From Pelobacter propionicus DSM 2379 (GTDB lineage Bacteria; Desulfobacterota; Desulfuromonadia; Geobacterales; Pseudopelobacteraceae), in contig NC_008609.1 in assembly GCF_000015045.1 (NCBI RefSeq), forward strand, positions 930,001-994,000: a stretch of DNA of 64,000 nucleotides, in the 5' to 3' direction. Of this stretch, positions 25,502-42,502 are shown in pieces (the first letter of the stretch is position 1; each line of letters begins with the position of its first letter). The notes under the pieces were generated by a model. It saw nothing but the letters and a program-made list of their open reading frames with translations. It ran no database searches and was not told the origin of the DNA. Both the position numbers and the translations under genes were made by a program.

Positions 25502-25813
25502 TGCATGCTCCTCAGGTGCCGTTGGCGTAGGTTTTGGAATCGGGGCAGCTGCTCCGCCAATAGAAAACGAACGCCGTTTACGCCAGGAAGTATACAATGT
25601 TTGTGCTCCGCTGGCTTAAATTAACCGAAAAAAACGCCCGCCGGCAGTGTTGCTGGCGAAGCGCCCCGCAGCCGGTCACCGCAGGCAGGGTCCCGTTTCC
25701 CGGCCCTGTTTGTCATCCCGCTTGACAGCCAAAAAACGTTGGTGTATCGTTCGGTCCCTGCTGGAAGGCAAGAAATCTTTTAATAACTAATATCTTATGA
25801 TGCGGGCGGATAG
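25502..25813. other. Divergent intergenic region upstream of lipid cluster
   Basis: This stretch separates the divergent PAS kinase and ketoreductase genes and must hold promoters for both. A GC-rich stretch around 25638-25670 can form a weak stem-loop. The only clear promoter-like match is listed at 25722-25750. No gene is supported. Confidence 0.5.
25722..25750 (+). promoter_or_regulatory. Candidate sigma-70 promoter of lipid cluster
   Basis: A consensus -35 TTGACA (25722-25727) is separated by 17 nt from TATCGT (25745-25750), a partial -10 match. It lies 64 nt before the ketoreductase start and points into the 26-kb biosynthetic cluster. It was chosen by eye. Confidence 0.5.
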
Positions 25814-26533
25814 ATGAAGACTGCATTGGTGATCGGCGGAAGCCGTGGCATAGGACGGGCAATCACACTCAGGCTGGCAGAATCGGGTTTTGCCATCTGG
25901 CTGACCTACAGGAACAACCATGAGGCGGCCCGCGGCGTGCAGCAGGAGATCGAGGCGGCCGGAGGCAGTTGCGACCTGATCCCCTTCGATGTATCCAGCT
26001 ACGAAGAGACCGAGGCAGCCCTGGCCGAGCGCCTGGAGCGTGTGTCTCCCGATGTGCTGGTGTACAACTCGGGCATCGCCCGCGACAACCTGCTGATGTG
26101 GATGACCAAAGACGAGTGGAATTCGGTGATTTCCACCAACCTGAACGGTTTTTTCAACGTTACCCGCCAGGTGGTGTTCGCCATGCTCAAGGCCAGGCGC
26201 GGGCGGATCGTGGTGATCTCCTCCACTTCCGGCCAGGTGGGCCAGCCCGGCCAGGTGAATTATTCCGCCTCCAAGGCCGGCCTGATCGGCGCCGCCAAGG
26301 CCCTGGCGCGCGAGGTGGGCAAGAAGAAGATCTCGGTCAACGTGGTCGCTCCCGGCTTCATCGAAACCGAGATGACCACTGAGATTCCCCGGGAGCAGGT
26401 CCTCCCTCTGATCCCGCTCAACCGGGTCGGTACTGCCGACGACGTTGCCTCGGTGGTCAATTTCCTCTGCACCGAAGAGCATATGTATATCCATGGCCAG
26501 GTGATCGGCGTCAATGGCGGGCTGGCCATGTAG
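25814..26533 (+). CDS. 3-oxoacyl-ACP reductase (FabG-like SDR)
   Basis: The 239-aa short-chain dehydrogenase should reduce beta-ketoacyl-ACP with NADPH. The cofactor motif GGSRGIGRAI is at residues 8-17. The Ser-Tyr-Lys triad is in VVISSTSG and YSASKAG, and VVAPGFIETEM follows. The usual NAG motif reads NSG. Length is typical of FabG and of ketoreductases in aryl polyene clusters. It opens the cluster, 215 nt before the FAD oxidoreductase gene, which could still be on the same transcript. Its substrate is probably carried on one of the three cluster ACPs. Confidence 0.9.
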   Translation: MKTALVIGGSRGIGRAITLRLAESGFAIWLTYRNNHEAARGVQQEIEAAGGSCDLIPFDVSSYEETEAALAERLERVSPDVLVYNSGIARDNLLMWMTKDEWNSVISTNLNGFFNVTRQVVFAMLKARRGRIVVISSTSGQVGQPGQVNYSASKAGLIGAAKALAREVGKKKISVNVVAPGFIETEMTTEIPREQVLPLIPLNRVGTADDVASVVNFLCTEEHMYIHGQVIGVNGGLAM

Positions 26534-26748: not shown

Positions 26749-28242
26749 ATGAAAAAATATGATCATATCGTAGTGGGAAGCGGCATCAGCGGGTTGACGA
26801 TGTCGCTTTTGCTCTCCATGGGTGGAAAGAGCGTCCTTCTGATCGAGAAAAGCCCCACCATCGGCGGTTCCCTCTCCTGTTTCAGCCGGGGGGGGATTTC
26901 GTTCGACACCGGATTCCACTTTACAGGCGGCTTCCACCAGGGGGGGATACTCTCCGACATGCTGTCCCTGCTGGGCATCCGCGACATGATCGAGCCGGTC
27001 TTCCTTCCCTGCTCGGCCCAGAACCAGTTCGTCTTCGAGTCCCACGCCAGGAGCTTCGAACATCCCTGCGGCATGGATAACATCACCAGGGCCTTCAAGG
27101 GGTATTTTCCCGCCCAGACGGGGGCGATCGACCGCTACTTCCAGCTGGTCCGCTCGGTTTGCCAGCGCACCCCCTCCCTCAACCTGCGTGAAAACGTGAT
27201 CGCACCGCCGAACCTGGACGAGGACTACATCTCCCTGGACAGCGTGCTTAAAGAGCTGACCTCCGATCCCCTCCTGGCCGGCCTGCTGTCGGGGTACGCC
27301 ATGTGCTACGGGGTGCGGCCCGCCGAGGTCTCCTTTGCCAACCACGCCAGAATGGTCTCCAGCTTCTATGAGTCCGTGGCCTTTGTGCGGCATGGCGGCG
27401 ACGGCTTCATCAACGCCTTCCGTGAGGAGTTCAGGCGCCGCACTGTGGAAATCCGCTGCTCCACCTGGATTACGGAGCTGGCCGATATCCGCGACAGCAG
27501 GGTGGGTCGCTTCGTGCTGAGTAGCGGCGAAGAGGTCCAGGCTGACAATTGCGTCCTGACCATTCATCCCCAGGAGATCCTCAGGCTTTTGCCGGAGGGA
27601 CACTACAGCAGGGCCTTCGCCAGTCGGATCAACGCCTTTGAGCCTTCGCTGGGGCTCTTTTCGCTGTTCGCAGTGGTCAAGCCGGGGCAGGTCGACCCCT
27701 TTCCGGATGCGTCCATCGTGTCGCTCTTTCCCGATACCGACATGAACAGGCTGCTGGACCCCGCCTACCAGGGGCAGCCGGCCCTGGTCGTCGTCAAACC
27801 CCCGGCCCACGGGGGGGGGAAGGGAATCAGCATCGTGGAACCCTCCTTCGCCGGTCAGGTGCAGGCCTGGCAGGAGAGCCGGCGGGGGGCGCGGCCCGAG
27901 GGATACCAGGCCTACAAGCGGGCGCGGGTGGAGGCCATCAAGGAGCATCTCTTCGGCTGCTTCCCGGAGTACCGGGACCGCCTGGATTTCCTGGATGCCG
28001 GCTCCATGCTGACCTACAAGGAGTACCTCTGCAGCCCCGACGGCAGCGCTTATGGCGTGAAGCAGAAGATGGGCCAGTTCAACCTGGTGGGCAAGCTCCC
28101 CCTGCACAACCTCTTCGCCGCGGGACAGAGCGCGCTCTTGCCCGGCGTGATCGGCGCCATGATGTCGTCACTGATCGTCGGTCGCAACCTGCTGGGAAAA
28201 GAACAGTACGGACAACTGCTGGACAGGAACCTATGTCATTGA
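26749..28242 (+). CDS. FAD-dependent oxidoreductase, CrtI/phytoene-desaturase-like
   Basis: The 497-aa protein starts with a dinucleotide-binding fold (VVGSGISGLTMSLLLSMGG, then LIEKSPTIGGSLSCF) and ends with the FAD-contacting LFAAGQSALLPGVIGAMMSS typical of CrtI and carotenoid isomerase (CrtISO) relatives. In carotenoid pathways such enzymes desaturate or isomerise polyenes. Here the neighbours are FAS II enzymes rather than terpenoid genes, so an acyl chain or polyene on ACP or in the membrane is the likely substrate. CrtI-like proteins also occur in ladderane-type clusters, from memory. It overlaps the ketosynthase gene by 10 nt. A weak RBS precedes ATG 26749. Confidence 0.82.
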   Translation: MKKYDHIVVGSGISGLTMSLLLSMGGKSVLLIEKSPTIGGSLSCFSRGGISFDTGFHFTGGFHQGGILSDMLSLLGIRDMIEPVFLPCSAQNQFVFESHARSFEHPCGMDNITRAFKGYFPAQTGAIDRYFQLVRSVCQRTPSLNLRENVIAPPNLDEDYISLDSVLKELTSDPLLAGLLSGYAMCYGVRPAEVSFANHARMVSSFYESVAFVRHGGDGFINAFREEFRRRTVEIRCSTWITELADIRDSRVGRFVLSSGEEVQADNCVLTIHPQEILRLLPEGHYSRAFASRINAFEPSLGLFSLFAVVKPGQVDPFPDASIVSLFPDTDMNRLLDPAYQGQPALVVVKPPAHGGGKGISIVEPSFAGQVQAWQESRRGARPEGYQAYKRARVEAIKEHLFGCFPEYRDRLDFLDAGSMLTYKEYLCSPDGSAYGVKQKMGQFNLVGKLPLHNLFAAGQSALLPGVIGAMMSSLIVGRNLLGKEQYGQLLDRNLCH

Positions 28243-29459
28243 AACGAGTCGTCATAACGGGAATCGGTGTTGTTTCGCCCTTCGGAAACGGGGTGGCGGA
28301 ACTGGTCAGGGGGATGGAAGAGGGGCGCAGCGCCGTGCGCTTCATGGAGGGGTGGGACCGCTACAACGGCCTGCAGAGCCTGGTGGCCGCTCCGGTGGAG
28401 ATGCGCGGCGAGAAGGACATCCCCCGCCAGAAGCGCCGCTCCATGGGACGCATGAGCATCTTCGCGGCCCAGGCTGCCGACGAGGCCCTGGCTGACGCCG
28501 GCATCTGCCTGGCGGACGAGAACCTGTGGAGAGTCGGCTGCGTCATCGGCTCCACCATGGGGAGCGCCAAGAGCATCAACGACACCTTCGAGACCATGCT
28601 GCCGGACCGGGACTTGAGCAGGCTCAACTCCACCATGTTCTTCCAGTGCATGTCCCACACCGTGACGGCCAACGTGGCCCAGTACCTGGGACTGAACGGC
28701 ACGGTCATGGCCACCTCGGCCGCCTGCGCCTCGGCCCTGCACGCCCTGGGTGTGGGATACGACCTGATCCGCCTGGGGAGGCAGGAGGTTCTGCTGTGCG
28801 GCGGGGCGGAAGAGCTGCATCCCACGGTGACCGGCTCCTTCGACATCCTCTTCGCCACCTCCACAAAATACAACGAAAACCCTCAGAAGACTCCGCGTCC
28901 CTTTGACCGGGACCGGGACGGCCTGGTCTGCGGCGAGGGGAGCGGCATCCTGGTGCTGGAGGAGTACGAGCGGGCTGTTGCCCGCAACGCCAGGATCTAT
29001 GCCGAACTGACCGGTTTCTGTACCACTGCCAACGGCCTGCACGTCAGCCAGTCCAACCGGGACTCCATGGTCACTTGCATGCGCCAGGCCATCGAGGAGG
29101 CCGGGCTTGCGCCCGAGGGGATCGACTACATCAACGCCCATGCCACGGCTACCATTCAGGGGGATCAGGAGGAGGCGGAGGCGATCCGCGAGCTGTTCGG
29201 TCCGGCGGTGCCGGTCAGTTGCATCAAGGGGTACATCGGCCACACCCTGGGCGCGGCCGGATCCATAGAGCTGGCCGCGGCCCTGAAGATGATGGAGCAG
29301 GGAGTGATCTACCCGACTCACAACCTGGAGACGGTCAGCCAGGAGTGCGCGGGGATCGGGCATGTGATGCAACCGCTCAAAAAGCAGATCCGCAGCATAC
29401 TGAAGAACGGGTTCGCCTTCGGCGGCATCAATGCCGCGCTGGTGTGCACAAAAATCTGA
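28233..29459 (+). CDS. Beta-ketoacyl-ACP synthase (FabF type)
   Basis: The 408-aa thiolase-fold condensing enzyme has the complete Cys-His-His triad: C165 in ATSAACASALHALG, H303 in INAHATATIQGD and H337 in KGYIGHTLGAAG. The NAHATAT reading, in place of NAHGTST, is a mild variant. It should extend acyl chains with malonyl-ACP. It overlaps the CrtI-like gene by 10 nt and is followed after 30 nt by an acyl carrier protein gene, its probable partner. It is one of three complete ketosynthases in the cluster and the only one without an adjacent degenerate KS-like partner. Confidence 0.92.
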   Translation: MSLKRVVITGIGVVSPFGNGVAELVRGMEEGRSAVRFMEGWDRYNGLQSLVAAPVEMRGEKDIPRQKRRSMGRMSIFAAQAADEALADAGICLADENLWRVGCVIGSTMGSAKSINDTFETMLPDRDLSRLNSTMFFQCMSHTVTANVAQYLGLNGTVMATSAACASALHALGVGYDLIRLGRQEVLLCGGAEELHPTVTGSFDILFATSTKYNENPQKTPRPFDRDRDGLVCGEGSGILVLEEYERAVARNARIYAELTGFCTTANGLHVSQSNRDSMVTCMRQAIEEAGLAPEGIDYINAHATATIQGDQEEAEAIRELFGPAVPVSCIKGYIGHTLGAAGSIELAAALKMMEQGVIYPTHNLETVSQECAGIGHVMQPLKKQIRSILKNGFAFGGINAALVCTKI

Positions 29460-29489: not shown

Positions 29490-29756
29490 ATGACCGAGCA
29501 GGAAATTATCGACAAAACCAACAGGGTCTTCGAGGAGGCCTTTGAAATAGAGCCGGAGCGGCTGCTGCCGGAGGCCAATATCTTCGTTGACCTGGGGCTG
29601 GACAGCCTGGACATCGTCGATCTGGTCGTGGCGCTCCAGAACAGCTTCGGCGTCAAGATCAGAAACGAGGAGCGCATCAGGGAGATCCGCACCCTCCAGG
29701 ACCTATACGGCTTCATCGCATCCCTCCGCACGGGGAAGGACGTCACAAGCGCATAG
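29490..29756 (+). CDS. Acyl carrier protein
   Basis: The 88-aa acidic protein carries the 4'-phosphopantetheine site at S39 in LGLDSLDIVDLVVAL. Helices flank it in the usual four-helix ACP pattern. GGAGGAG precedes ATG 29490. It follows the first ketosynthase gene and is the first of three ACPs in this cluster, which differ from each other enough to suggest distinct jobs such as starter and extender carriers. Confidence 0.92.
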   Translation: MTEQEIIDKTNRVFEEAFEIEPERLLPEANIFVDLGLDSLDIVDLVVALQNSFGVKIRNEERIREIRTLQDLYGFIASLRTGKDVTSA

Positions 29757-29940: not shown

Positions 29941-30693
29941 ATGCTCCAGCGCCTGTGTCTCTACCTCTTCAACCTGTACTTCTACACCCTTTTCCTCCTG
30001 CTCTCGGCGATCGTGATTCCGCTGTTGACCCTGTATGTCGTCTGCCAGGCGCCGTTCTCTACGCGCCGCAGGACCATGAAGCGCTTCCGGGCGGGCATCC
30101 GCCGGTATGGCCGGGTGATCACGTCCCTGCCATACCCCCTGATCAGGCTCCACTACCACTGCCCGGAGAACGGCCAGCCGGAAGAGGCGTGCATCTTCGT
30201 CTGCAACCACCGCTCGGCCTCGGACGCGTTCCTGATGGCCGTGCTGCCCCATGAACTGGTGCAGATCGTCAATGTCTGGCCGTTCCGGATACCGGTGCTG
30301 GGCATCTACGCCAGGTGGGCCGGTTATCTGAACATCCGCATGATGCCACCGGAAGAGTTCATGCGGCGGGGCACGGCGTTGCTGAGAGACGGCGTGTCGC
30401 TGGTGTTCTTCCCCGAGGGGACCCGCTCCACCGGGCGTGACATGGGCAGCTTCCACGGTTCGGCCTTCAGGCTGGCCCTGGCCTCGGGGGCGCCGCTGGT
30501 GCCGCTGTGCATCTCGGGGAGCGAAACCGCCCCACCCAAGGGGTCGGCCCTTCTGCATCCCGGAACGGTCAGGATTCGTCAGATGGCGGCCATCACCCGC
30601 GACCAGTACCGGGGTATGACCCCCTTTGCCTTCAAGAACCGGGTCTGGAAAATCATGGGGCGCGAACTGGCGCTCATGGAGAACAGGGCATGA
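29941..30693 (+). CDS. PlsC-like acyltransferase
   Basis: The 250-aa membrane-associated protein has an N-terminal hydrophobic helix (LYLFNLYFYTLFLLLSAIVI). The HX4D acyltransferase site is in CNHRSASDAF and the second PlsC block in FFPEGTRSTGRDMGSF. Such enzymes move acyl groups from ACP or CoA onto glycerol phosphates or related alcohols. In aryl polyene clusters comparable enzymes attach the polyene to a lipid head group. The start ATG is chosen from context; no strong RBS is seen. The next gene starts within its stop codon. Confidence 0.88.
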   Translation: MLQRLCLYLFNLYFYTLFLLLSAIVIPLLTLYVVCQAPFSTRRRTMKRFRAGIRRYGRVITSLPYPLIRLHYHCPENGQPEEACIFVCNHRSASDAFLMAVLPHELVQIVNVWPFRIPVLGIYARWAGYLNIRMMPPEEFMRRGTALLRDGVSLVFFPEGTRSTGRDMGSFHGSAFRLALASGAPLVPLCISGSETAPPKGSALLHPGTVRIRQMAAITRDQYRGMTPFAFKNRVWKIMGRELALMENRA

Positions 30694-32000
30694 CGCAGCA
30701 CAACTTTCAGGGGATGGGGGAGGCGGAGTTCCTGGCGCCCGACCGGATCCGCCGGCTGCAGGAAGAACTGCTGGCCAGGCATCTCGCCCATGTGGCCAGC
30801 GCCTCTCCCTTCTACCGGCAGCGGTTCCGGGAGCAGGGGATCGACGCGAGCCGGGTCAGCCTGGAGAATCTGGCGCAGATCCCCTGTACCACCAAGGACC
30901 AGCTGGCCGAGCGCAACGACGACTTCCTGGCTGTGCCGATGTCCCAGGTCGTGGATATCGTCCTCTCCTCCGGCACCACCGGCAGGCCCACCACGGTGAT
31001 GTACACGGAAAGCGATCTGGAGCGCCTGGCCTACAACGAGCGGATCTCCTTCGCCGGCTGCGGGCTGGGGCCGTCCGATGTGGTGCTGCTGACCTGCACC
31101 ATGGACCGCTGCTTCGTGGCCGGGCTGGCCTATTTCAGCGGTGTCAGGAGCCTGGGGGCGGCGGCCATCAGGAACGGATTGAGCAGTGTGGAGAGCCACC
31201 TGGAGATCATCCGCAGGCTGAAGCCGACGGTGCTGGTGGGGGTGCCAAGCTTCCTGCACAAGCTGGGGCGCTTCCTGGAGAGCCAGGGGCTGGACCCGGC
31301 TTGCAGCGGGGTCGCCAGGCTGGTCTGCATCGGCGAGCCGGTGCGCGACCGGGCCATGAATTTCCTCAAGATCGGCGAGAATCTGGAGCGGTTGTGGGGC
31401 GCCCGGGTCTATTCCACCTATGCCTCGTCGGAGATCGTCACCAGCTTCTGTGAATGCACCGCCCAGGCCGGGGGGCACCTGCATCCCGACCTGGCGGTGG
31501 TGGAGATCGTCGACGAGCGGGGCGCAGCGCTCCCTGCGGGCGAGGTGGGCGAGGTGGTGGTCACCCCCCTGGGCACCCAGGGGATGCCGCTGGTTCGTTT
31601 CAGGACCGGCGACCTGAGCTTCCTGATGGACGAACCGTGCCGCTGCGGCCGCACCTCGCCGCGCCTGGGTCCGATCCTGGGGAGGAAGCAGCAGATGCTC
31701 AAGCTGCGCGGCACGACCATCTACCCCACCTCCATCAACGCGGTGCTGGACGCCTATCCCGGCATCAGCGAGTACTATGTGGCCGCATCCAGCGACAGCA
31801 ACCTGTCCGACCGGGTCGAGGTCTTCGTGTCGGTCGGCGATCCCCGCTGTTCGGCCGAGAGGATCATGGACAAGCTGCAGGCTCATCTGCGTGTGCGACC
31901 CCAGGTGGTCATTGCCAGCGAGGAGCAGGTCAAAAGCCGGGTCTATCCCGGCAATGCCCGCAAGATGATCCGTTTCGTGGATACGAGAGAGAGACCATGA
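30690..32000 (+). CDS. AMP-dependent acyl activating enzyme, phenylacetate-CoA ligase-like
   Basis: The 436-aa adenylate-forming enzyme starts MTQHNF, overlapping the acyltransferase stop (ATGA). The nucleotide loop is LSSGTTGRPTT, the central ATP-binding block is YSTYASSEIVT, the hinge region is FRTGDLS, and a lysine near the end lies in GNARKMIRF. A Cys-rich CRCGRTSPRLG segment is typical of PaaK-like ligases. It may load the starter acid onto an ACP or CoA. No aromatic amino-acid ammonia lyase lies in the window, so the usual aryl polyene starter (4-hydroxycinnamate) has no local source. A longer frame from 30507 is not needed. Confidence 0.87.
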   Translation: MTQHNFQGMGEAEFLAPDRIRRLQEELLARHLAHVASASPFYRQRFREQGIDASRVSLENLAQIPCTTKDQLAERNDDFLAVPMSQVVDIVLSSGTTGRPTTVMYTESDLERLAYNERISFAGCGLGPSDVVLLTCTMDRCFVAGLAYFSGVRSLGAAAIRNGLSSVESHLEIIRRLKPTVLVGVPSFLHKLGRFLESQGLDPACSGVARLVCIGEPVRDRAMNFLKIGENLERLWGARVYSTYASSEIVTSFCECTAQAGGHLHPDLAVVEIVDERGAALPAGEVGEVVVTPLGTQGMPLVRFRTGDLSFLMDEPCRCGRTSPRLGPILGRKQQMLKLRGTTIYPTSINAVLDAYPGISEYYVAASSDSNLSDRVEVFVSVGDPRCSAERIMDKLQAHLRVRPQVVIASEEQVKSRVYPGNARKMIRFVDTRERP

Positions 32001-33490
32001 CGAACTGTCCGGACAGAATCTACGGTTCCGAATTCACCCCCCGGGAGATAGCCGATGCCGTGCGCGATGGGCGCCTGCTCTCCATGGAGATCGAATTCAA
32101 CCAGAACTGCAACTTCAGCTGCATCTACTGTTACGCCTCCCAGGCCAGCGCCAAACGCGACGACCTGACCAGGGATGAGTTCCTGGACATCATCGGTCAG
32201 GCTCGGGAACTGGGGGCGCGCAAGATCATCATCCTCGGCGGCGAGCCGACCCTCTACCCCCACCTGATGGAGATGGTCCGCCATATCCGCTCCACGGGGA
32301 TGGATGTGGAGCTGTTCACCAACGGCGCCAATGTCACCCCGCAGCTGGCTCGGGAGCTGTTTGAGAACCGGGCCAGGGTCGTGCTTAAGATGAACACCCT
32401 GGACGAGAGCCTGCAGGACACCCTCTGCGGCCGCAAGGGGGCCCATACCCAGATCCAGGAGGCCTTCGCCAACCTGAAGCTGGCCGGCTACCCCTCGCCT
32501 GACTGCCCCTTGGGAGTCAGCTCCATCATCTGCCAGCAGAATGTGGAGGAGCTGCCCCGCATGTGGCAGTGGCTGCGCGACCAGGGCATCCTGCCCTATT
32601 TCGAGATGATGACCCCCCAAGGGGGCGCCCGTGAGCATAACATGCTGGAGCTGGACTCCCCCAGGGCGGAGGACTTCTTCAACCGCATCGCCGAGATCGA
32701 CAGGACCGGCTACGGCATCCACTGGCAGCCCCAGCCCCCGCTGGTGGGGGGAGAGTGCCTGCGGCACCAGTACTCCTGCGCCGTCAACTCCCAGGGCTTT
32801 GTCCAGTCCTGCGTCGGCATTACCATCCCCATCGGCGACCTGCGCAGACAGAGCCTGCGGGAGGTGCTGCGCGACAGCGAGGTGGTGCAGGACCTGAAGA
32901 ACTACCGGGACCTGATCAAGGGGCCCTGCGGCACGTGCGAGCAGCTGGACCACTGCTACGGCTGCCGCGGCAGCGCATACCAGCTTACCGGCGATTACCT
33001 GGCCTCCGACCCGCTTTGCTGGAAGAACAGCCAGCGTCGCGACGAGATCATGTTCCTGCCCATCGACGTGTCCCGCTTCATGCCGCACAAGCCGCCCATG
33101 CTGCTGGTGGACCGCCTGCTGGAGATCGGGGACAGGACCTCGCTGTGCGAGATGACCGTGCGCGGGGATATGATTTTCGTGGACGAAGACGGCAGGCTGG
33201 ACGATGCCTCCTTTCCGGAGATCATCTCCCAGGCCGTGGCGGCCCAGGAGGGGTTCCGCAGGATCGCCAGCAGGAATCCGCTGCTGGAAGGCTTTCTGCT
33301 GGGAGTCAAGAAGCTGGAGGTCCTGGGGACGGCGCGGGTGGGGGACAGTCTGCGCATCTCCCTGTACAAGGCTTCCCGGTTCGGTGACTTCGGCATCCTG
33401 GAGGGTACGGTGATGAACGGCGACACGCTGATCGCCCGCGGTGAGATCAAGGTCTGGCAGAGCGGTTCCGGGGCGGGGAGTGGCGCATGA
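31997..33490 (+). CDS. Radical SAM protein fused to hotdog dehydratase domain
   Basis: One open frame of 497 aa joins two enzymes. Residues 1-351 form a radical SAM protein: the [4Fe-4S] ligands are C38, C42 and C45 (CNFSCIYC), GGEPTLYP follows, and a SPASM-like Cys set lies near the end (CAVNSQGFVQSC, CGTCEQLDHCYGC). Residues 352-497 are a FabA/FabZ-like 3-hydroxyacyl-ACP dehydratase of the aryl polyene type (FMPHKPPMLLVD with the active-site His, FPEIISQAVAAQEG with the acidic partner). No stop or ribosome site separates the parts; an in-frame ATG at 33050 lacks an SD. The start overlaps the ligase stop by 4 nt, as does the next gene. A fusion implies that radical chemistry and dehydration act on the same carrier-bound chain. 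Confidence 0.85.
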   Translation: MTNCPDRIYGSEFTPREIADAVRDGRLLSMEIEFNQNCNFSCIYCYASQASAKRDDLTRDEFLDIIGQARELGARKIIILGGEPTLYPHLMEMVRHIRSTGMDVELFTNGANVTPQLARELFENRARVVLKMNTLDESLQDTLCGRKGAHTQIQEAFANLKLAGYPSPDCPLGVSSIICQQNVEELPRMWQWLRDQGILPYFEMMTPQGGAREHNMLELDSPRAEDFFNRIAEIDRTGYGIHWQPQPPLVGGECLRHQYSCAVNSQGFVQSCVGITIPIGDLRRQSLREVLRDSEVVQDLKNYRDLIKGPCGTCEQLDHCYGCRGSAYQLTGDYLASDPLCWKNSQRRDEIMFLPIDVSRFMPHKPPMLLVDRLLEIGDRTSLCEMTVRGDMIFVDEDGRLDDASFPEIISQAVAAQEGFRRIASRNPLLEGFLLGVKKLEVLGTARVGDSLRISLYKASRFGDFGILEGTVMNGDTLIARGEIKVWQSGSGAGSGA

Positions 33491-34152
33491 GGGAATCCGC
33501 GGCCATGAGAAGCGTGATGCTGATGCTTGCCTGCCTGCTGCTGGCGATCCCCGTCTCCGGTTCGGGGACGGCGCAGCCTGCGGATATGGCGCTCTTCCTG
33601 CGCGACCTGGGCAAGAAGGCGTCCAGCTTCAGGACCCTCAAGACCGACTTCACCCAGGAAAAGAAGATGGCCATGTTCCGGGAGAAGCTGGTCCTCAAGG
33701 GGCGCATCTATCTGCAGAAGCCCAACCGGGTCGCCTGGCACGTGGATTCTCCCCTGCGCTATTCGGTGCTGATCACGGACAGGCTGATCCGCCAGTGGGA
33801 TGAGGAGACCAACCGGGTCCAGGAAGTCTCCCTGGCCAAAAATCCGGTCTTCCAGAACGTGCTCAGCCAGCTGACGGTCTGGTTCTCGGGGGAGTACGGC
33901 TCGCTCTTGGAGGCCAACGACGTGCGTGTGGTCAGCCGCCAGCCGCTGGCGATCGAGTTCATCCCCCGGCCCACCAACATCTCCCGCACGGTGATCAAGG
34001 CCATCACCATCACCTTCCGCGACGACCAGAAGTACCTGCAGCAGATCCGCATCCAGGAACTGAGCGGAGACCTGACCACCCTGCGCTTCCACAACACCAT
34101 CATGAACGCGCCGCTGGACAGCCGCAGCTTCGAGGTCAAGGGGCGTGTTTGA
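33487..34152 (+). CDS. LolA-like periplasmic lipid carrier
   Basis: The 221-aa protein has a signal peptide (SVMLMLACLLLAIPVSG) and a LolA-type beta-sandwich pattern: LKTDFTQEKKMAMF, KGRIYLQKPNRVAW and the later FHNTIMNAPLD. LolA proteins bind acyl groups in a hydrophobic cavity and ferry them to the outer membrane. Such a gene is a regular part of aryl polyene clusters. It overlaps both neighbours (4 nt and 8 nt) and precedes the MMPL exporter gene, so the three-gene set (carrier, exporter, lipoprotein) should move the lipid product outward. Confidence 0.85.
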   Translation: MRESAAMRSVMLMLACLLLAIPVSGSGTAQPADMALFLRDLGKKASSFRTLKTDFTQEKKMAMFREKLVLKGRIYLQKPNRVAWHVDSPLRYSVLITDRLIRQWDEETNRVQEVSLAKNPVFQNVLSQLTVWFSGEYGSLLEANDVRVVSRQPLAIEFIPRPTNISRTVIKAITITFRDDQKYLQQIRIQELSGDLTTLRFHNTIMNAPLDSRSFEVKGRV

Positions 34153-36523
34153 TTCCATCTTCTCCTGGCTGTACGGCCGCGTCCTGCACCACAGGAGAGT
34201 GGTCATCCTGCTGGTGCTGCTGCTCACCCTGGCCGCCGGAGCGGCGCTCTTTGTTGCCCGCTACGAGGGGAACATCGATCTGATGCTGCCTCCGGACCCC
34301 GAGATCGCCCGCAGCATGGACGTTCTCAGGGGATCCAGCTTCTCGGACAAGATGGTCGTCTCCCTTGCCCTGACCGATCCTTCCAAGACGAATAAGGAGC
34401 TCTTTCAGGCCGTGGACCAGCTGGCCTCGTCCCTGAAGCCGCCGCTGTTCATGAAAGTTGTGTCCGGCTTTTCACTGGCCACTGCCATGGATGAATTCTC
34501 CATCCTGCGCTATGCGCCCCAGGTGCTGGGGGAAGCTGATCTTGCGGTCATCGACGGTCAGATCAGGGAGGATGTGGTGTCCCGCAAGCTGCGGGACATC
34601 TATCTGCAGTCCTTCAGGCCGGAGAGCATCTTCACCTCGTCCCTCTCCCGCGGCGACCCCCTGGGGATCAAGCTGCTGCTGCTGGAAAAGATGCGGGCCC
34701 TGCCCGCCTCCATGGGGTACGACGTTTCCATCGAGGACGGGCACTTCATCAGCCGTGACGGCCGTCACTCCATGCTGATCATCCAGACCTCGGTCCCCAT
34801 GATGGACAGCCCGGGAAGCAAGCGGCTGGTGGCGGCCCTCCAGGAGCGGATCAGGGAACTGCCCCCCTATGTCACAGCCGACATCATCAGCGGCCATCTC
34901 CACACGGTCAGCAACGAACGGGTGATCAAGCACGACATCGCCGTCGTCTCCATCATCGCCTCGGTAACCTTCCTGCTGCTCTTCCTGCTGCTCTTCCGCG
35001 ACCCGCGGGTGCTGTTCGTGCTTATCATCCCGCTCATCGCCGTTGTCTGGGCGATCCCTTTGGCAACGGCCGTGGAGGGGCGGCTCTCGTTCATCGTGAT
35101 CGGTTTCGGCACGGCCATAGCCGGTATTTCCGATTACGGCCTTGTGGTGTACATCGCCATGAAACGGGGCGTCGCCGTCGGCCAGATTGTCAAACTCGCC
35201 AGGCTGGTCACCGTGGATGCGGCCACCACCATGTTCAGCTTTCTGGTCCTGTATATTTCCGTGATCCGCGGCTACCATCAGCTGGCGCTCTTCTCCGGAC
35301 TCTGCGTGGTGATCTGCCTGCTCCTGTCGCTGTTCCTCCTGCCGCCGCTCCTCTCCTGGAAGCGCTATCCCCTGGTTACGGACGCCACCATCGGTGACGG
35401 ACTGGATCGGTTCCTCAAGCCGTGCCGGGCGAATGTGGTGGCCTGGGCCGTGCTGACCGGTGTGGCGCTCGTGCTCTCCTTTTCGGTGACCTTCGACAGC
35501 GACGTGAAGAAGCTGGATGGCTCCGAACCGGGGATCCTGGCGGCTGAACAGCGCTTCCATGATGTGTGGGGGGGCAAGGCCAACCAGGCCCTGTTCGTGG
35601 TCAGCGCCGCCAGCCTGGAACAGGCCATGGAGATCAACGACCGGGTCTACGGGGAGGTGGCCGGAACCCGGCTCAAGGGGGAGTTCACCAGCCTGGCACA
35701 GTTCTGGCCTTCCGCGAAAGTGCGCCAGGAGAACGTCCGGCGCTGGGAGGAATTCTGGTCCCAGGGGCGGGAGCAGAAGCTTCAAGAGCTGATCCGCCGG
35801 ACGTCTGTATCCCAGGGCTTTTCCGAGAACGCCTTTGAACCCTTCTTCCAGGGACTGCATGCCTCACCCGGGGGGGAGGCGGTGACGGGCGGGGTGATCG
35901 GACAGCTGCAGGATCGATTTGTGTTGAGCAAAAACGGAGAATACCGTATCGTATCCTACTTTCCCGACCAGCGGGATTACATCGATGCGCTGAAACCGAT
36001 CACGCAACGATACCCTGGCACGTTTGTCGTATCGGGGAGAGCGCTGTCAGAGTCCATATCCACCATTACCGGTCGTGAGATCAGGATCCTGGCGCCGCTG
36101 GCCATCCTGCTCAACGTCCTCTTGACCTGGCTGCTCTTCAGGGAGTGGAGATACACCCTGATCGCCCTGGTGCCGCTGGTTACCGGCATTGTCTGGCTGA
36201 CCGGCATCATGGCGCTCCTGCACATTCCGCTGAATGTCATCAACATCGTGGCCGCCATCGTCTCCACCGGCGTGGTCGTGGACTACGGAAACGGCATGGC
36301 CTATGAGCATCGCCACAACCTGAACAGCGGAGCGCACCTGGCCGTGACCATGTCGGCGGCAACCAACGTCATCGGCTGCGGGGTGCTGCTGTTCGCCAGA
36401 CACCCGGCGCTGTTCTCCACCGGCGTTGCCATGGCGATCAGCATGGTCAGCGGCTATCTCACCGCGCTGCTGGTGGTTCCCTCACTCTGCGCCATGGCGC
36501 GGGAGCGGGGAGGGGAGCCGTGA
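34145..36523 (+). CDS. MMPL/RND-family lipid exporter
   Basis: The 792-aa inner-membrane protein has the two-fold RND layout: a helix near residue 20, a periplasmic loop, five or six helices (about 260-430), a second loop, and a final helix bundle (about 640-790). Polar residues in the fourth helix (GFGTAIAGISDYGLV and IVSTGVVVDYGNGMAY) may relay protons. MMPL proteins export complex lipids in actinobacteria and occur in aryl polyene and hopanoid loci. It overlaps the LolA-like gene by 8 nt and the lipoprotein gene by 4 nt. Confidence 0.88.
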   Translation: MFDSIFSWLYGRVLHHRRVVILLVLLLTLAAGAALFVARYEGNIDLMLPPDPEIARSMDVLRGSSFSDKMVVSLALTDPSKTNKELFQAVDQLASSLKPPLFMKVVSGFSLATAMDEFSILRYAPQVLGEADLAVIDGQIREDVVSRKLRDIYLQSFRPESIFTSSLSRGDPLGIKLLLLEKMRALPASMGYDVSIEDGHFISRDGRHSMLIIQTSVPMMDSPGSKRLVAALQERIRELPPYVTADIISGHLHTVSNERVIKHDIAVVSIIASVTFLLLFLLLFRDPRVLFVLIIPLIAVVWAIPLATAVEGRLSFIVIGFGTAIAGISDYGLVVYIAMKRGVAVGQIVKLARLVTVDAATTMFSFLVLYISVIRGYHQLALFSGLCVVICLLLSLFLLPPLLSWKRYPLVTDATIGDGLDRFLKPCRANVVAWAVLTGVALVLSFSVTFDSDVKKLDGSEPGILAAEQRFHDVWGGKANQALFVVSAASLEQAMEINDRVYGEVAGTRLKGEFTSLAQFWPSAKVRQENVRRWEEFWSQGREQKLQELIRRTSVSQGFSENAFEPFFQGLHASPGGEAVTGGVIGQLQDRFVLSKNGEYRIVSYFPDQRDYIDALKPITQRYPGTFVVSGRALSESISTITGREIRILAPLAILLNVLLTWLLFREWRYTLIALVPLVTGIVWLTGIMALLHIPLNVINIVAAIVSTGVVVDYGNGMAYEHRHNLNSGAHLAVTMSAATNVIGCGVLLFARHPALFSTGVAMAISMVSGYLTALLVVPSLCAMARERGGEP

Positions 36524-37188
36524 TCAGGCTGATCTGTCTGCTGCTCGCCCTGCTGCTCATGGCCGGCTGCGGGGCTCAGGTTCCCTTTCGGGAGGTGCCG
36601 GCCCTCCCCCTGGGAGCGGCTGAGCCGGCCAGGGTGCTGGATGATTTCAAGGCCCGCCTGCCGGAGCGTTTTCAGCTGCTCAACTCGGTGGTGCTGGAGT
36701 ATGCCGGCCTGTCCTTCATGGCTATCGGCTATCTGGACATGGACAGGAGCGACAACAGCTTTCAGGTGAGCTGCCTGAACCCCCTGGGGGTACGGCTGTT
36801 CGAGCTGTCCGGCGATCATGGCGCTATCACGGCCCGTTCGGTGCTGCCGCCACTCATGGGGTATGGCGACCTGCCCACCGCCGTGGGAACGGATATCGGC
36901 AGGATCTTCCTGGATCTGCTGCCGGCACCCCATGCCCAGGTCTGGAGGACAGGGAACAGTATCAGCTTCTGGCAGCCGGCCGGGGCGGGGCGCATGCAGT
37001 ACCTCTTCGCCGGACCTGATCGGGACCTGCTGGAGAAGAACTACTATGAGGACAGCCAGATCCAGTGGGGCGTTTCCTACTACGAATACGTTGAACTGGC
37101 TGGAAAACGCTATCCCCGGGGGATCGTGCTGACCAACTACCAGCGCAATTACCGGCTGATAGTGCGACACAAGGAGTTGTATTCGTGA
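36520..37188 (+). CDS. Outer-membrane-type lipoprotein, DUF3261-like
   Basis: The 222-aa protein has a lipoprotein signal (MIRLICLLLALLLMAGC, lipidation at C17) and a mature part resembling DUF3261 proteins found after LolA and MMPL genes in aryl polyene clusters. Family assignment is by position and general pattern, so moderate. It may receive the lipid from the LolA-like carrier, as LolB does for lipoproteins. It overlaps both neighbours by 4 nt. Confidence 0.72.
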   Translation: MIRLICLLLALLLMAGCGAQVPFREVPALPLGAAEPARVLDDFKARLPERFQLLNSVVLEYAGLSFMAIGYLDMDRSDNSFQVSCLNPLGVRLFELSGDHGAITARSVLPPLMGYGDLPTAVGTDIGRIFLDLLPAPHAQVWRTGNSISFWQPAGAGRMQYLFAGPDRDLLEKNYYEDSQIQWGVSYYEYVELAGKRYPRGIVLTNYQRNYRLIVRHKELYS

Positions 37189-37583
37189 GCAGGATCAAGG
37201 CGGAAATCCAGCAGTGCATGAGCGGACCGGAAAGGGACGGCGCGACCATTGGCGCCCGTTTCCGCTTTCCAGCGGGATTCATCGGCTTCCAGGGGCATTT
37301 CCCCGGCAACAGCGTCCTGGCCGGTGCCTGCCAGATCCAGTGCGCCCTCACCGCCATGGAGAAGGGGCTGGGCAAGGCGGTCGCCCTGCGCGAGATCGTG
37401 CTGGCCAAGTTCGTGGCGCCGGTGCTGCCGGAGCAGGAGATAACCTGCCTGGTGAGCGATTGCGCCGACACCCCGGGGGAGTGGCTCTGCCGGGCCCGCA
37501 TCACCAGGGGGGATGAACGGGTCGCCGAGCTCAGGCTGCGGGTCTGCCTGGTCGACGAAGCGGAAGGGCGGCGCGACCCATGA
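37185..37583 (+). CDS. 3-hydroxyacyl-ACP dehydratase-like hotdog protein
   Basis: The 132-aa protein is a single hotdog domain with the FabZ-type helix motif GHFPGNSVLAGACQIQ (active-site His). The acidic residue normally found in the next helix is replaced by Gln in this alignment (AGACQIQCAL), so activity may be altered or the protein may be a partner of the dehydratase domain encoded upstream. It starts at GTG, preceded by AAGGAG and overlapping the lipoprotein stop. It is the second dehydratase-like unit of the cluster. Confidence 0.8.
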   Translation: MSRIKAEIQQCMSGPERDGATIGARFRFPAGFIGFQGHFPGNSVLAGACQIQCALTAMEKGLGKAVALREIVLAKFVAPVLPEQEITCLVSDCADTPGEWLCRARITRGDERVAELRLRVCLVDEAEGRRDP

Positions 37584-38065
37584 ACATGCGCAGGAAGAGA
37601 ACCTATTTCGAACGCACGGCCGGCTCTCCGCAGCCGATCAGGGTGGAGCTGGAGCGTCGCGTCCGCTTCAACGAGGCCGATCCCATGGGGATCATGTGGC
37701 ACGGCAGGTACCCGCTGCTGTTCGAGGAGGCCTCCGAGGAACTGGGCAGGCGCTGCGGCCTCTCCTACGAGGAGTACCGCCAAGCCGGTCTCTACGCCCC
37801 GATCCTGTCGCTGCACATCGATTACTTCCAGCCGCTGCGCCTGGCCGAGCAGTTCAGGGTGGCCGCGTCCCTGGTCTGGCACGAGGGGGCGCGGCTGAAC
37901 ACCGAATTCCAGGTGCTGAAACAGGACGGGAGCCTGGCCACCAGCGGCTACACCATCCAGCTCTTTACCGACCAGCTGAGCGGTCAGCCCTGCATGGTCA
38001 CGCCGGCCATGCTGGAGCGCTGCCGGAGCAGGTGGAAGGCGGGGGAGTTTCATCCATGCCCATGA
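37580..38065 (+). CDS. 4HBT-family acyl thioesterase
   Basis: The 161-aa hotdog protein carries the YbgC/4-hydroxybenzoyl-CoA thioesterase motif RFNEADPMGIMWHGRYP with its catalytic Asp near residue 37, then LHIDYFQPL. Thioesterases of this type occur in aryl polyene clusters and may release chains from ACP or proof-read stalled intermediates. ATG 37580 overlaps the previous stop by 4 nt, and the next gene starts 10 nt before its end. Confidence 0.88.
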   Translation: MNMRRKRTYFERTAGSPQPIRVELERRVRFNEADPMGIMWHGRYPLLFEEASEELGRRCGLSYEEYRQAGLYAPILSLHIDYFQPLRLAEQFRVAASLVWHEGARLNTEFQVLKQDGSLATSGYTIQLFTDQLSGQPCMVTPAMLERCRSRWKAGEFHPCP

Positions 38066-39198
38066 AAGCCGTTGTTGTCGACTGCGATTGCCTGACCCCC
38101 TACGGCATGGGGAGCGATGCCTGCTGGCAGGGACTCCTGTCCGGGAGGTCGGCCATCACCAGGATTTCCCGCTTCGCCACCGGTGCCTTCATGTCCGACT
38201 ACGCCGCCACGGTGGAAGGGCTTATCTACCACGGCGGGACATCGTTGGTCATGCAGATGATCGATCGCCTGTTTCGCTGCGCTGCCCCGGACATCCCGGC
38301 CGACAGCCGGCTCCTGCTGGCAACCACCAAGGGGGAGATCGACTTCCTGGAGATGAGCGTGCTCTCCGATAGCGGCGATGCCGGCGAGAGCTCCCTGGAG
38401 CGGCTGCTGGAGAAGGTCGCCCGGCGCAGCGGCGCCGGGGGGGGGAGTCTGCTGCTGTCGGCCGCCTGCACCTCGTCCTCGGCTGCAGCGGCGCGGGGCG
38501 CGGCCCTGATCAGGGATGGCCAGGCAGACTGCGTGCTGGTGGTGGCCTGCGACGCGGTCACGGAATTCGTCTTTTCCGGCTTCTCCTCGCTGATGGCGCT
38601 GGACAGGGAGCCCGCCCGTCCCTTCGACAAGAACCGCGCCGGACTGAGCGTGGGGGAGGCGGCCGCCTACATGCTGATCATGAGCGAAGAACGGGCCCAA
38701 CGGGAGAAGCGCGCCATCCTGGCCGAACTGGCCGGCTGGGGGTTGAGCGACGATGCCAACCACATGACCGGGCCGAGCCGGGAAAGCGAGGGGATGATCC
38801 GCGCCATAGAGGTTGCGCTCCGCTCCGCCGGCCTGGGAGAGGAACGCATCGGTTTCATCTCCGCCCACGGCACCGGCACCCCCTACAACGACGCCATGGA
38901 GATGCGCGCCTTCCGCGCCCTGTTCGGCGCACAGAAGCGGCCGGTCTACTCAATCAAGGGGGGGATCGGCCACACCATGGGGGCAGCCGGTCTGGTGGAG
39001 CTGATCATGGCTGCCAGGGCATTGAGCGAGCAGCAGGTTCCCCCCACGCTGAACCTGGAGCAGGCGAGTGACGATGCCAGGGGGTGGGTCTCCGCCCAGC
39101 CGCAAGGACTGGAGGCGGCCGGCTATGCCCTGGTGACCAATGCCGGCTTCAGCGGCGTGAACACCGCCCTGGTGCTGGGGAACGGGGGCCTGTCATGA
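38056..39198 (+). CDS. Beta-ketoacyl synthase, complete
   Basis: The 380-aa condensing enzyme has C138 (LSAACTSSSAAAARG), H271 (ISAHGTGTPYND) and H306 (GGIGHTMGAAG), a full triad. It is slightly short for FabF. It overlaps the thioesterase gene by 10 nt and the next, KS-like, gene by 4 nt. The pair looks like a KS with a reduced chain-length-factor partner, as in type II polyketide and aryl polyene systems. ATG 38056 (MPMKAV) is used; a second ATG two codons later is possible. Confidence 0.9.
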   Translation: MPMKAVVVDCDCLTPYGMGSDACWQGLLSGRSAITRISRFATGAFMSDYAATVEGLIYHGGTSLVMQMIDRLFRCAAPDIPADSRLLLATTKGEIDFLEMSVLSDSGDAGESSLERLLEKVARRSGAGGGSLLLSAACTSSSAAAARGAALIRDGQADCVLVVACDAVTEFVFSGFSSLMALDREPARPFDKNRAGLSVGEAAAYMLIMSEERAQREKRAILAELAGWGLSDDANHMTGPSRESEGMIRAIEVALRSAGLGEERIGFISAHGTGTPYNDAMEMRAFRALFGAQKRPVYSIKGGIGHTMGAAGLVELIMAARALSEQQVPPTLNLEQASDDARGWVSAQPQGLEAAGYALVTNAGFSGVNTALVLGNGGLS

Positions 39199-39869
39199 GA
39201 ATCCAGGTGACCGGCGCCGGATGGGTGACAGAGTCGGCATACGGCAGCGTTGCGAGCGGGGAGGAGCGGCGTTTCGCCGAGGGGGAGGGAGTAGTTTCCC
39301 TGTCGCGCTCGGGGCTCTTCTCCCACCCCTTCAGGAACTTCGCCCGGCTGGACCTGTTGTCCAAGATGACCGTCTGTGCCGTGGCCTTGGCCCTGGGGGA
39401 CGCGGCCATCGCCTACTCTGCGCTGGAAAAGCAGGCCATCGGCATCCTGGGCAGCAGCAGCCAGGGGGCCCTGGCCTCCGATCTGGCCTATTTCAGCGAC
39501 TACGTTCGCAACGGCCGCACTCTGTCGCGGGCCAACCTGTTCATCTATACCCTCCCCTCCAGCCCCCTGGGCGAAGCTGCCATACACTTCGGCCTCGTGG
39601 GGCCGCTCCTGTACGCAGGGGGAGGGCAGGGGGCGGCCGGCACGATCCTGGACATGGCCGCCGCCATGCTGGCGGCTGGCGAGGCTGATCATATGCTGGT
39701 GGGCCGGGCCGATCCCGGGGAGGCCCTGTACCTTGTGCTTGAACGGGATCGGGGAGGTCGTGGAATCTGCTCCCTGGCCGAGGCGCGGGCAATCGTCGAT
39801 TCAGTACCTGATGTGGCTGGCATGGTGCAGGAACTATTACTCGTGAAGGATACAGAGGGCGAACCGTGA
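39195..39869 (+). CDS. Truncated ketosynthase-like protein without catalytic Cys
   Basis: The 224-aa protein aligns only to the N-terminal half of ketosynthases: LLSKMTVCAVALALGDAAI, IGILGSSSQGALASD, then GPLLYAGGGQGAAGTILD where the active Cys would be replaced by Gly. The C-terminal half with both His is missing, but no frameshift or stop explains this. It is coupled by ATGA overlaps to the KS before it and to the radical SAM gene after it. It may act as a small chain-length-factor-like partner of that KS. Confidence 0.8.
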   Translation: MRIQVTGAGWVTESAYGSVASGEERRFAEGEGVVSLSRSGLFSHPFRNFARLDLLSKMTVCAVALALGDAAIAYSALEKQAIGILGSSSQGALASDLAYFSDYVRNGRTLSRANLFIYTLPSSPLGEAAIHFGLVGPLLYAGGGQGAAGTILDMAAAMLAAGEADHMLVGRADPGEALYLVLERDRGGRGICSLAEARAIVDSVPDVAGMVQELLLVKDTEGEP

Positions 39870-41134
39870 AGATAAAATTGATCTATCCCAAATGGCCCAA
39901 GCTGGACCGGCAGACCGACTTCAACCTGCCGCCCCATGGCCCGGTCTGTTTCGCGGCCACGGTTCCGGCGGACGTGGACTTGAGCTTTACCGACGAGCAT
40001 GTGGAGCCGATCGATTTCGACGAGCATGCTGACCTGGTGGCCATCTCCTGCATGCTGACCTGCCAGATGCCCCGCGGCTGGGAGATCGCCGACATCTACC
40101 GTGCCAAGGGGATCCCGGTGATCTTCGGTGGTATCGGCACCATGCTGCATGCCCAGGAGACCATGACCCACGCCGATTCCGTCTTTCTGGGCGAGGCCGA
40201 GGGACGTTTCCATCAGGTGCTGACCGACCTGAACAACGGGGGGATGCAGAAGGTCTACGATTACCAGAACGACCTCCCCGACATCGGCCTGGTCGGTCCG
40301 GCGCGGCGGGAGATCCTCAACCGTGAACTGTACAACTACCGGGGCATGCAGATGGTGGACCTGGTGCACGCCTCCCGCGGTTGCCGCTTCACCTGCTTCC
40401 CCTGCTGCACGCCGTTTTTGGGGGGGACCAGATTCCGGCCGCGCTCCCTGGACGACGTCATCGCCGAGGTGGCTTCAATAGAGAACAACCGCCTGTTCTT
40501 CGTGGATAACTCCATGTCCCAGGACGACCAGTGGGAAAAGGATCTGTTCAAGGCCCTGATTCCGCTCAAGAAGAAGTGGGTTTGCCACCCGATCAAGGAC
40601 AACGACGAGATCCTGGACCTGGCCGCCGAAGCCGGCTGCTGGTACGTCTACCAGGCCATCTTCGACACCTCCGACCATATCCGCAACCGGGTCAAGCGCC
40701 TGCAGGAGCGGGGCATCGGCGTGGAGGGGACCATCATCCTGGGCACCGACGAGCAGGACGAGGAGTACATCAAGCGGCTGGTGGATTTCCTGCTGGAGAT
40801 CAACCTGGATCTGGCGGAGTTCACCATCCTGACCCCCTTCCCGCATACGCCGATCCGCGAGACCCTGGAAAAGGAGGGGCGCATCCTCTCCAACGACTGG
40901 CTGCGCTACACCGGCGGAGAAGTGGTCTTCCAGCCGGCGCGCATGACCCCGTCGAAACTTCAGGATCTCTATTATTACGCCTGGGACCGCTTCTACAGCG
41001 ACAGCAGCCAGAATCTGAAGATGGCCAAGCTGTTTCTCAAGGTGATGGAAAAGGAGAAGGCAGATGGAACATATCGCCATACCAGCCCCCGGCGCAGGAA
41101 GTGGGAGCGGAACGTGGAACGGGAGATTGTATAG
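39866..41134 (+). CDS. B12-binding-type radical SAM enzyme (first of two)
   Basis: The 422-aa protein has an N-terminal region like the cobalamin-binding fold (HADLVAISCMLTCQMPRGW, then GIPVIFGGIGTMLHAQE, VFLGEAE) and a radical SAM domain with C173, C177 and C180 (RGCRFTCFPC). The B12-ligating DxHxxG motif is not evident, as in many members of this class. Such enzymes (BchE-like group) carry out methylation, cyclisation and oxidative ring closure. The extra Cys after the motif (CFPCC) is notable. It overlaps both neighbours. Its substrate is probably an acyl or polyene chain from this cluster. Confidence 0.87.
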   Translation: MKIKLIYPKWPKLDRQTDFNLPPHGPVCFAATVPADVDLSFTDEHVEPIDFDEHADLVAISCMLTCQMPRGWEIADIYRAKGIPVIFGGIGTMLHAQETMTHADSVFLGEAEGRFHQVLTDLNNGGMQKVYDYQNDLPDIGLVGPARREILNRELYNYRGMQMVDLVHASRGCRFTCFPCCTPFLGGTRFRPRSLDDVIAEVASIENNRLFFVDNSMSQDDQWEKDLFKALIPLKKKWVCHPIKDNDEILDLAAEAGCWYVYQAIFDTSDHIRNRVKRLQERGIGVEGTIILGTDEQDEEYIKRLVDFLLEINLDLAEFTILTPFPHTPIRETLEKEGRILSNDWLRYTGGEVVFQPARMTPSKLQDLYYYAWDRFYSDSSQNLKMAKLFLKVMEKEKADGTYRHTSPRRRKWERNVEREIV

Positions 41135-42502
41135 GTGAAGGTGTTGATGATTTCGGCAAATGTGACGCTCTACCCCTATCCCGTCTACCCCCTGGGCATG
41201 AGCATGGTGGCGGCGGCCCTCAGCGGGGCGGGACACGAGGTCCAGCAGCTGGATTACCTGCAACAGGAGCGCTCCCTGGAGTCCGTGCTTGAGGAAGTGA
41301 AACGTTTTCAGCCCGGCATGATCGGCATCTCGGTGCGCAACATCGACAACGTGAACCTGCTGAACACCGAGTACTACATCCATAACGTCAAAAACATGGT
41401 GGATGCCATCAGGACGGTGAGCGATGCCCGCATCGTGCTGGGCGGAGCCGGCTTCTCCCTGATCCCTGAGCAGATCCTGGAGGAAACCGGCGCCGATTTC
41501 GGCGTGATCGGCGAGGGCGAGCAGCTAATGGTTGCGTTCGCCGACGGCGCGGAGCGGGGAATCTACCCCCAGAAACGGTTGCTGGGGCCGGCGTCGCCCC
41601 TGTCCGGCGACGATATTGGCTCGGCGCTCTACGACGAGGGGCTGACCCGCTTCTACCTGCAGAGCGGCAACATCGCCTCGATCCAGACCAAGCGGGGCTG
41701 CAGCCACCACTGCGTCTACTGCACCTATCCGCTGCTGGAGGGTTCGTGCCTGCGCAGCCGCGACCCGGTGAAGGTGGTGGACGACATCGAACTTTTGCGC
41801 GACAAGCACGGCACCGGCTACATCTTCTTCGTGGACTCGGTGTTCAATGACGATTCGGGTATCTACCTGGGGGTGGTGGACGAGATGCTGCACCGCAAGG
41901 TCAACATCCCCTGGACCGGCTACATCAAGCCGGGGAACCTGAACGACGAGATCGTGGAGCGCATGAAGAGCACCGGATTCGCCTCCGCCGAAGTCGGCTC
42001 CGACGCGGCCTGCGACAGCACCCTGGCTCGCATGGGCAAGGACTTCACCTTCGCCGACATCCGGGAGTGCAACGATCTGCTGACGCGGCACGGCATCGCC
42101 ACCTGTCACTTCTTCATGTTCGGCGGCCCGGGGGAGACCGAGGAGACGGTTAAGGAGGGGATCGCCAACATCTTGAGCCTGAAGAAGTGCGTCATCTTCA
42201 TCTTCATGGGTATCCGCCTGCTGCCCAACACTCCGCTGGCCAAAATCGCTGTCCGGGAAGGGGTGATCGACTCGGAGAGCGACATGCTGCAGCCGGTGTA
42301 CTACATCGCGCCCAACCTGGACAGGGACTGGCTGGAACGGACCCTGACCGAGGCCTTCGCCGGGGTTCGCCACTGCCTGTTCCCCCCCGACTGCATGGAC
42401 AATTGTCTGAACGTGTTGCACAAGCTGGGCTATAGCGGTCCCATGTGGGATCTGCTCACCAAGGAAAAACCGCGCAGAAGGGGCGCCCATGCCGCGGCCT
42501 AG
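41135..42502 (+). CDS. B12-binding-type radical SAM enzyme (second of two)
   Basis: The 455-aa protein starts at GTG directly after the stop of the first radical SAM gene. N-terminal segments PYPVYPLGMSMVAAAL, MIGISVRNIDN and IVLGGAGFSLIPEQIL are typical of the cobalamin-binding domain in B12-radical SAM proteins. The cluster site is C189, C193 and C196 (RGCSHHCVYC). FFMFGGPGETEETV near residue 325 is typical of the SAM domain's second half. A Cys-bearing tail (FPPDCMDNC) may hold another ligand. Tandem B12-type enzymes in a FAS-like cluster resemble ladderane loci more than standard aryl polyene loci. Confidence 0.87.
   Translation: MKVLMISANVTLYPYPVYPLGMSMVAAALSGAGHEVQQLDYLQQERSLESVLEEVKRFQPGMIGISVRNIDNVNLLNTEYYIHNVKNMVDAIRTVSDARIVLGGAGFSLIPEQILEETGADFGVIGEGEQLMVAFADGAERGIYPQKRLLGPASPLSGDDIGSALYDEGLTRFYLQSGNIASIQTKRGCSHHCVYCTYPLLEGSCLRSRDPVKVVDDIELLRDKHGTGYIFFVDSVFNDDSGIYLGVVDEMLHRKVNIPWTGYIKPGNLNDEIVERMKSTGFASAEVGSDAACDSTLARMGKDFTFADIRECNDLLTRHGIATCHFFMFGGPGETEETVKEGIANILSLKKCVIFIFMGIRLLPNTPLAKIAVREGVIDSESDMLQPVYYIAPNLDRDWLERTLTEAFAGVRHCLFPPDCMDNCLNVLHKLGYSGPMWDLLTKEKPRRRGAHAAA

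Follow-up and report, generated by a model that had tools for sequence, protein, structure and literature searches.

An open reading frame of 497 codons that joins a radical SAM/SPASM enzyme to a hotdog dehydratase of the aryl polyene (ApeP) kind was identified at 31997..33490 (+) in the window, i.e. the whole stretch of 64,000 nucleotides of Pelobacter propionicus DSM 2379 DNA that was analysed (NC_008609.1, positions 930,001 to 994,000). A sequence-only reading of this DNA had claimed such a frame and knew of no described enzyme with this layout, while allowing that the fusion might turn out to be common and already characterised. The fusion was indeed shown to be common within one type of gene cluster, in many anaerobes of several phyla, and no description or characterisation of it was found in the literature searched. 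On balance, the protein is best interpreted as a bifunctional subunit, the ApeP half of which would pair with a second hotdog protein of the same cluster (HD2), with the SPASM radical SAM enzyme tethered at the same ACP-bound stage.

The fused protein and its domains

Translation of the window showed that the frame starts with an ATG at 31997, ends with a TGA at 33490 and contains no internal stop codons, its start overlapping the stop codon of the upstream ligase gene (ATGA). The encoded 497-amino-acid protein consists of a radical SAM/SPASM part (approximately residues 1-345; 31997..33031, +) and, following a short linker, a hotdog dehydratase domain (approximately residues 352-490; 33050..33466, +). 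Pfam searches with the entire protein returned Radical_SAM for residues 33-167 (1.5e-21; 77.7 bits compared with a gathering score of 29.5) and SPASM for residues 254-314 (2.4e-5; 24.9 bits compared with 21.5). Together with the CxxxCxxC motif (C38-C42-C45), these two matches above their gathering scores place the N-terminal part in the radical SAM/SPASM superfamily. A GGEP motif is present at residues 81-84, and the seven-cysteine SPASM pattern (C254, C272, C311, C314, C320, C323 and C341) was found to be invariant among 39 aligned sequences.

The C-terminal part gave no Pfam match at 1e-3 when the whole fusion protein was searched. When searched alone, it matched the ApeP-like family PF22817 (1.7e-4; 21.6 bits, which is below the gathering score of 27) and PDB chain 6qsr_B, the ApeP chain of an ApeI:P complex (8e-10). 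An AlphaFold2 model based on the 39 aligned sequences (mean pLDDT of 88, pTM of 0.87) showed both domains to be well formed, with residues 354-493 superposing on 6qsr_B (Z of 18.9, 25% identity) and the radical SAM part on the SPASM folds of SuiB, SkfB, anSME and PqqE (Z of 23-26). The dehydratase half is thus similar in fold and sequence to ApeP of Xenorhabdus doucetiae (PDB 6qsr), and likewise retains the Glu and lacks the His of the active site, with an ApeI-like partner gene in the same cluster. In contrast to ApeP, which is a free-standing protein of ~150 amino acids, the version encoded in the window is preceded within the same chain by a radical SAM/SPASM enzyme. The latter shares its fold, CxxxCxxC motif and seven-cysteine pattern with AhbD, NirJ2, PqqE, SuiB and anSME. 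Its scores against NCBIfam equivalogs were all far below the cut-offs, the highest being those for AhbD (126.9 bits, cut-off 500) and NirJ2 (117.1 bits, cut-off 500), compared with 98.7 bits for PqqE (cut-off 381). In a look that was not systematic, no precursor peptide or RRE was noticed that would suggest a RiPP maturase.

Alternative gene models were rejected. The fused frame is conserved in other genomes from several phyla, including four genomes among the relatives at 69-80% identity, and the fusion is therefore neither a chance arrangement nor the result of a frame error or a pseudogene. A separate dehydratase starting at Met352 was not supported, as this residue is not conserved and no clear Shine-Dalgarno sequence was seen upon inspection. 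A longer protein of 678 amino acids (the frame being open from 31454) was also dismissed, as its additional N-terminal stretch lies over the ligase gene and is read in a different frame from it.

The gene cluster and a probable shared dehydratase site

The fusion gene is located within a run of genes on the plus strand, which were assigned by profile matches unless indicated otherwise. Upstream, these encode an SDR ketoreductase (FlxB/FabG-like; 25814..26533), an FAD-dependent oxidoreductase (CrtI/CrtD-like; 26749..28242), a beta-ketoacyl-ACP synthase (KS1; 28233..29459), an acyl carrier protein (29490..29756), a PlsC-type acyltransferase (ApeD-like; 29941..30693) and an AMP-dependent acyl ligase (FlxY-like, phenylacetate-CoA ligase type; 30690..32000). 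Downstream, they encode a LolA-like carrier (ApeL- or flexirubin LolA2-like; 33487..34152), an MMPL/RND-type transporter (ApeM-like; 34145..36523, assigned from a weak Pfam match and its conserved position), a DUF3261/LolB-like lipoprotein (ApeN-like, Pfam; 36520..37188), the ApeI-like hotdog protein HD2 (37185..37583), a 4HBT thioesterase (ApeK-like; 37580..38065), a second ketosynthase (KS2; 38056..39198), a short ketosynthase-like or chain-length-factor (CLF)-like protein (39195..39869), two B12-binding radical SAM proteins (a, 39866..41134; b, 41135..42502), a family 2 glycosyltransferase with DUF2062 (ApeJ-like; 42489..43688) and an LpxL-like acyltransferase (43666..44568), which was assigned by eye from its translation and is a conserved neighbour. 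Across phyla, the order SDR, FAD enzyme, KS, ACP, PlsC, ligase, fusion, LolA, MMPL, DUF3261, HD2, thioesterase, KS, CLF, two B12-binding radical SAM proteins and glycosyltransferase is maintained. The CLF-like protein is ~224 amino acids in length, i.e. half the usual length of a ketosynthase, and is short in relatives too.

The set of genes is that published for aryl polyene clusters (PMC8253772). It shares with Flx/Ape clusters the KS, CLF-like protein, SDR ketoreductase, two dehydratases, thioesterase, LolA, MMPL and DUF3261 components, the acyltransferases and the FlxY-like ligase, several members scoring under curated cut-offs. The FlxY-like ligase obtained 459 bits compared with a cut-off of 520. 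Unlike Flx/Ape clusters, it lacks an ammonia-lyase and an ApeH-type ligase, and contains an additional three radical SAM domains and the CrtD-like FAD enzyme. Features of ladderane-type clusters are also present, since B12-binding protein b matched TIGR04072 (rSAM_ladder_B12) with 636 bits (cut-off 360) and is accompanied by FabF paralogues, the FAD enzyme and the ligase. The cluster need not be invoked as a source of the C31:9 hydrocarbon, for a separate pfa-like Type I synthase was listed in P. propionicus by Shulse and Allen (PMC3098273).

FabZ hotdog dehydratases form their active site from a His and a Glu that are contributed by the two subunits of a dimer. Among 51 fused dehydratase domains, Glu408 and Gln412 were invariant, whereas residues 386-403 contained no His in 50 of the 51, so that these 50 lack the combination of His plus Glu in one chain that marks a canonical, homo-oligomeric FabA/FabZ. 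Conversely, HD2 and its counterparts retain the GHFP His (His38) in 39 of 39 sequences, with an acidic residue at the FabZ Glu position in only 3 of 39; in HD2 itself, a Gln is aligned with an Asp of the ApeI fragment. The sequence match of HD2 to ApeI is weak (0.0015), and a Foldseek structure search ranked FabZ chains first. The same complementary His/Glu pattern was observed in sister clusters that encode a free-standing ApeP. These patterns, together with the precedent of the FabZ dimer, suggest that the fused dehydratase and HD2 most likely share one active site, predicted to consist of E408 from the fusion and H38 from HD2. Given the missing His, the fused dehydratase is probably active only when paired, as one half of a heterodimer, to its ApeI-like neighbour. 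The earlier assignment to a FabA/FabZ-type, aryl-polyene-type dehydratase was thus borne out for the aryl polyene (ApeP) kind and not for FabA/FabZ proper.

Distribution of the fusion and relation to anammox genes

A scan of one genome per species for patterns within the radical SAM part yielded 147 relatives, mostly on contigs of metagenome-assembled genomes (MAGs), the best 80 of which were analysed. Among these best 80, both domains were present in one frame in 49, with one more cut by a contig end, and the remaining 30 were represented by the radical SAM enzyme alone, ending just past a conserved DPxCWxN motif. Fusion bearers, nearly all MAGs, are labelled by their record titles as Geobacteraceae, other Thermodesulfobacteriota, Nitrospirota, Omnitrophota, Lentisphaerota, Verrucomicrobiota and Planctomycetota. 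Two MAGs labelled 'Brocadiaceae' that carry the fusion (G277 and G278) were not accepted as anammox bacteria, as hydrazine synthase alpha was not found in them.

In a tree of dehydratase domains, for which free-standing ApeP proteins were sampled only in the class of the window by a separate genome search, all fused domains were positioned on one side of a branch (SH-aLRT of 99, bootstrap of only 40), which allows, but does not prove, a single fusion event. The sequence-only reading had advised looking for homologues split into adjacent genes, and such an arrangement was found in two genomes (G170 and G173). On the radical SAM tree these fall inside the fused sequences on a long branch, and on the dehydratase tree outside the fused domains. 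With such a pair of separate, adjacent genes at locus L161 (12649-14338, minus strand), no ligase was found between PlsC and the radical SAM gene.

The radical SAM half is 43-45% identical, over its whole length, to a stand-alone protein of anammox-type genomes, the gene for which directly follows a ligase and precedes a B12 radical SAM gene (TIGR04072); hydrazine synthase alpha is encoded in five of the eight genomes with this relative. As this order fits the Kuste3343-3340 genes of Rattray et al. 2009 (PMC2649909), which Javidpour et al. 2016 list as Kuste3343-3342-3341-3340 (PMC4790861), we infer, by gene order alone, that the stand-alone gene corresponds to Kuste3343, a suspected ladderane gene. 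The window copy differs from it in being fused. In the portion of Rattray et al. 2009 that was available (PMC2649909), Geobacter and Pelobacter carbinolicus are reported to have clusters like those of anammox bacteria and Desulfotalea, and the fusion is not mentioned. Similar clusters were therefore already noted in 2009, the fused enzyme itself being apparently undescribed. In the same study, D. psychrophila, with its similar cluster, produced no ladderanes (PMC2649909). The synthesis of ladderanes by anammox bacteria is a long-open question, and a close relative of a suspected ladderane radical SAM enzyme is shown here to occur outside this group, including in the genome of the window.

Candidate roles of the radical SAM half

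The preferred interpretation places the fusion protein in an anaerobic aryl-polyene/flexirubin-like type II polyketide (lipid) assembly line, in which the ApeP half and HD2 would dehydrate ACP-bound 3-hydroxyacyl chains, and the N-terminal SPASM enzyme of the Kuste3343-like family would be tethered to act at the same ACP-bound stage. The fusion would link the radical enzyme either to dehydration of the ACP-bound chain or to the priming that immediately precedes it. The heterodimer, the substrate and the reaction are what we infer here, the fusion, its conservation, the family, the residue pattern and the slot replacement described below being observations. Making or priming the head or starter group, in replacement of an ammonia-lyase, is ranked slightly ahead of modification of the growing polyene.

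Sister clusters favour a role in starter supply. A 527-amino-acid ammonia-lyase is encoded between the ligase and a free-standing ApeP in G043, as is an ammonia-lyase in G190 and G133. At the G112 locus, which is cut by the end of its contig, a lyase gene adjoins ApeP, and three further short loci also have a lyase beside ApeP. No lyase was present at loci with the radical SAM protein among those examined; furthermore, PF00221 lyases were not found genome-wide in seven fusion genomes or in G170 and G173, nor was UbiC found in any of ten genomes tested, leaving the fusion genomes tested with no TAL/HAL or UbiC starter source. The swap concerns few clusters of one class and is a correlation, and suggests that head-group supply or priming may be the task of the radical SAM half, in place of a step alternating with dehydration. 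The location of the conserved fusion in an ACP-based cluster is supported, whereas the proposal of the sequence-only reading, successive action on one ACP-bound chain, is complicated by both the half-site and the lyase slot.

One possibility, to which we give not quite an even chance, is that the radical SAM half produces the acid of the head group, with an aromatic amino acid as a potential precursor, for activation by the adjacent FlxY-like ligase, and thereby replaces tyrosine ammonia-lyase, with the fusion to ApeP serving delivery or stoichiometry. Consistent with this, the ligase gene is directly upstream of the fusion in 44 of 51 fusion loci and of the stand-alone gene in three anammox-type loci. 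However, five fusion loci have no ligase next door, and stand-alone radical SAM relatives in Desulfobulbales occur in clusters with neither ligase nor ApeP, indicating that the radical enzyme requires neither of these partners. The role of FlxY in flexirubin models is, moreover, only putative in the wording of NCBIfam. The swap of a lyase for a radical enzyme constitutes a specific and testable hypothesis.

A slightly less favoured alternative, in line with the sequence-only reading, is that the radical SAM half abstracts a hydrogen from the elongating ACP-bound chain, leading to desaturation, oxidative decarboxylation, isomerisation or C-C bond formation, and that the dehydratase joined to it introduces double bonds into that chain or sets their position. 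In its favour, the top NCBIfam scores were those for the SPASM relatives AhbD and NirJ2, and AhbD is an oxidative decarboxylase that forms vinyl groups. Physical linkage to a dehydratase that acts on ACP-bound substrates would also fit, as would the Desulfobulbales clusters without a ligase and the occurrence of the relative in anammox clusters, whose lipid products have no aromatic head (PMC2649909). This alternative nevertheless leaves unexplained why sister clusters have an ammonia-lyase in exactly this slot and why the fusion genomes tested lack both lyase and UbiC genes. In either version, the radical enzyme would belong to one and the same assembly line as the dehydratase.

It is conceivable, though unlikely, that a ladderane-family radical SAM enzyme displaced the ammonia-lyase of a flexirubin/aryl-polyene pathway, came to make a new head group by radical chemistry and then became fused to the half-site dehydratase; if so, its relative would perform an equivalent step in anammox ladderane synthesis. 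A chance in-frame join of co-expressed neighbours whose domains act independently would agree with the adjacent genes of G170 and G173 and with the placement of their stand-alone ApeP away from the fused domains in the tree, but is improbable, as ~50 loci from several phyla have kept the fusion together with its short, conserved junction, and only L077 and G170/G173 have both domains unfused within one cluster.

A pyridoxal-dependent decarboxylase encoded just past the cluster (50635-52338) was considered a candidate tyrosine decarboxylase that would provide the head group, and was rejected as it represents PanP, an aspartate 1-decarboxylase (TIGR03799, 887 compared with a cut-off of 606). Between the cluster and this gene, a further module of KS, KS-like and ACP genes (45867-48539) is followed by a gene for a 439-amino-acid protein without Pfam matches (48553-49872), and G001, G026 and G225 have orthologues of this module and protein after their core clusters. 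A hybrid histidine kinase that is rich in PAS domains and includes a response regulator domain (23144-25597, minus strand) is encoded divergently from the first cluster gene, and paired genes for an rve integrase and an AAA ATPase at 59655-61929 probably represent an insertion element of the IS21 type.
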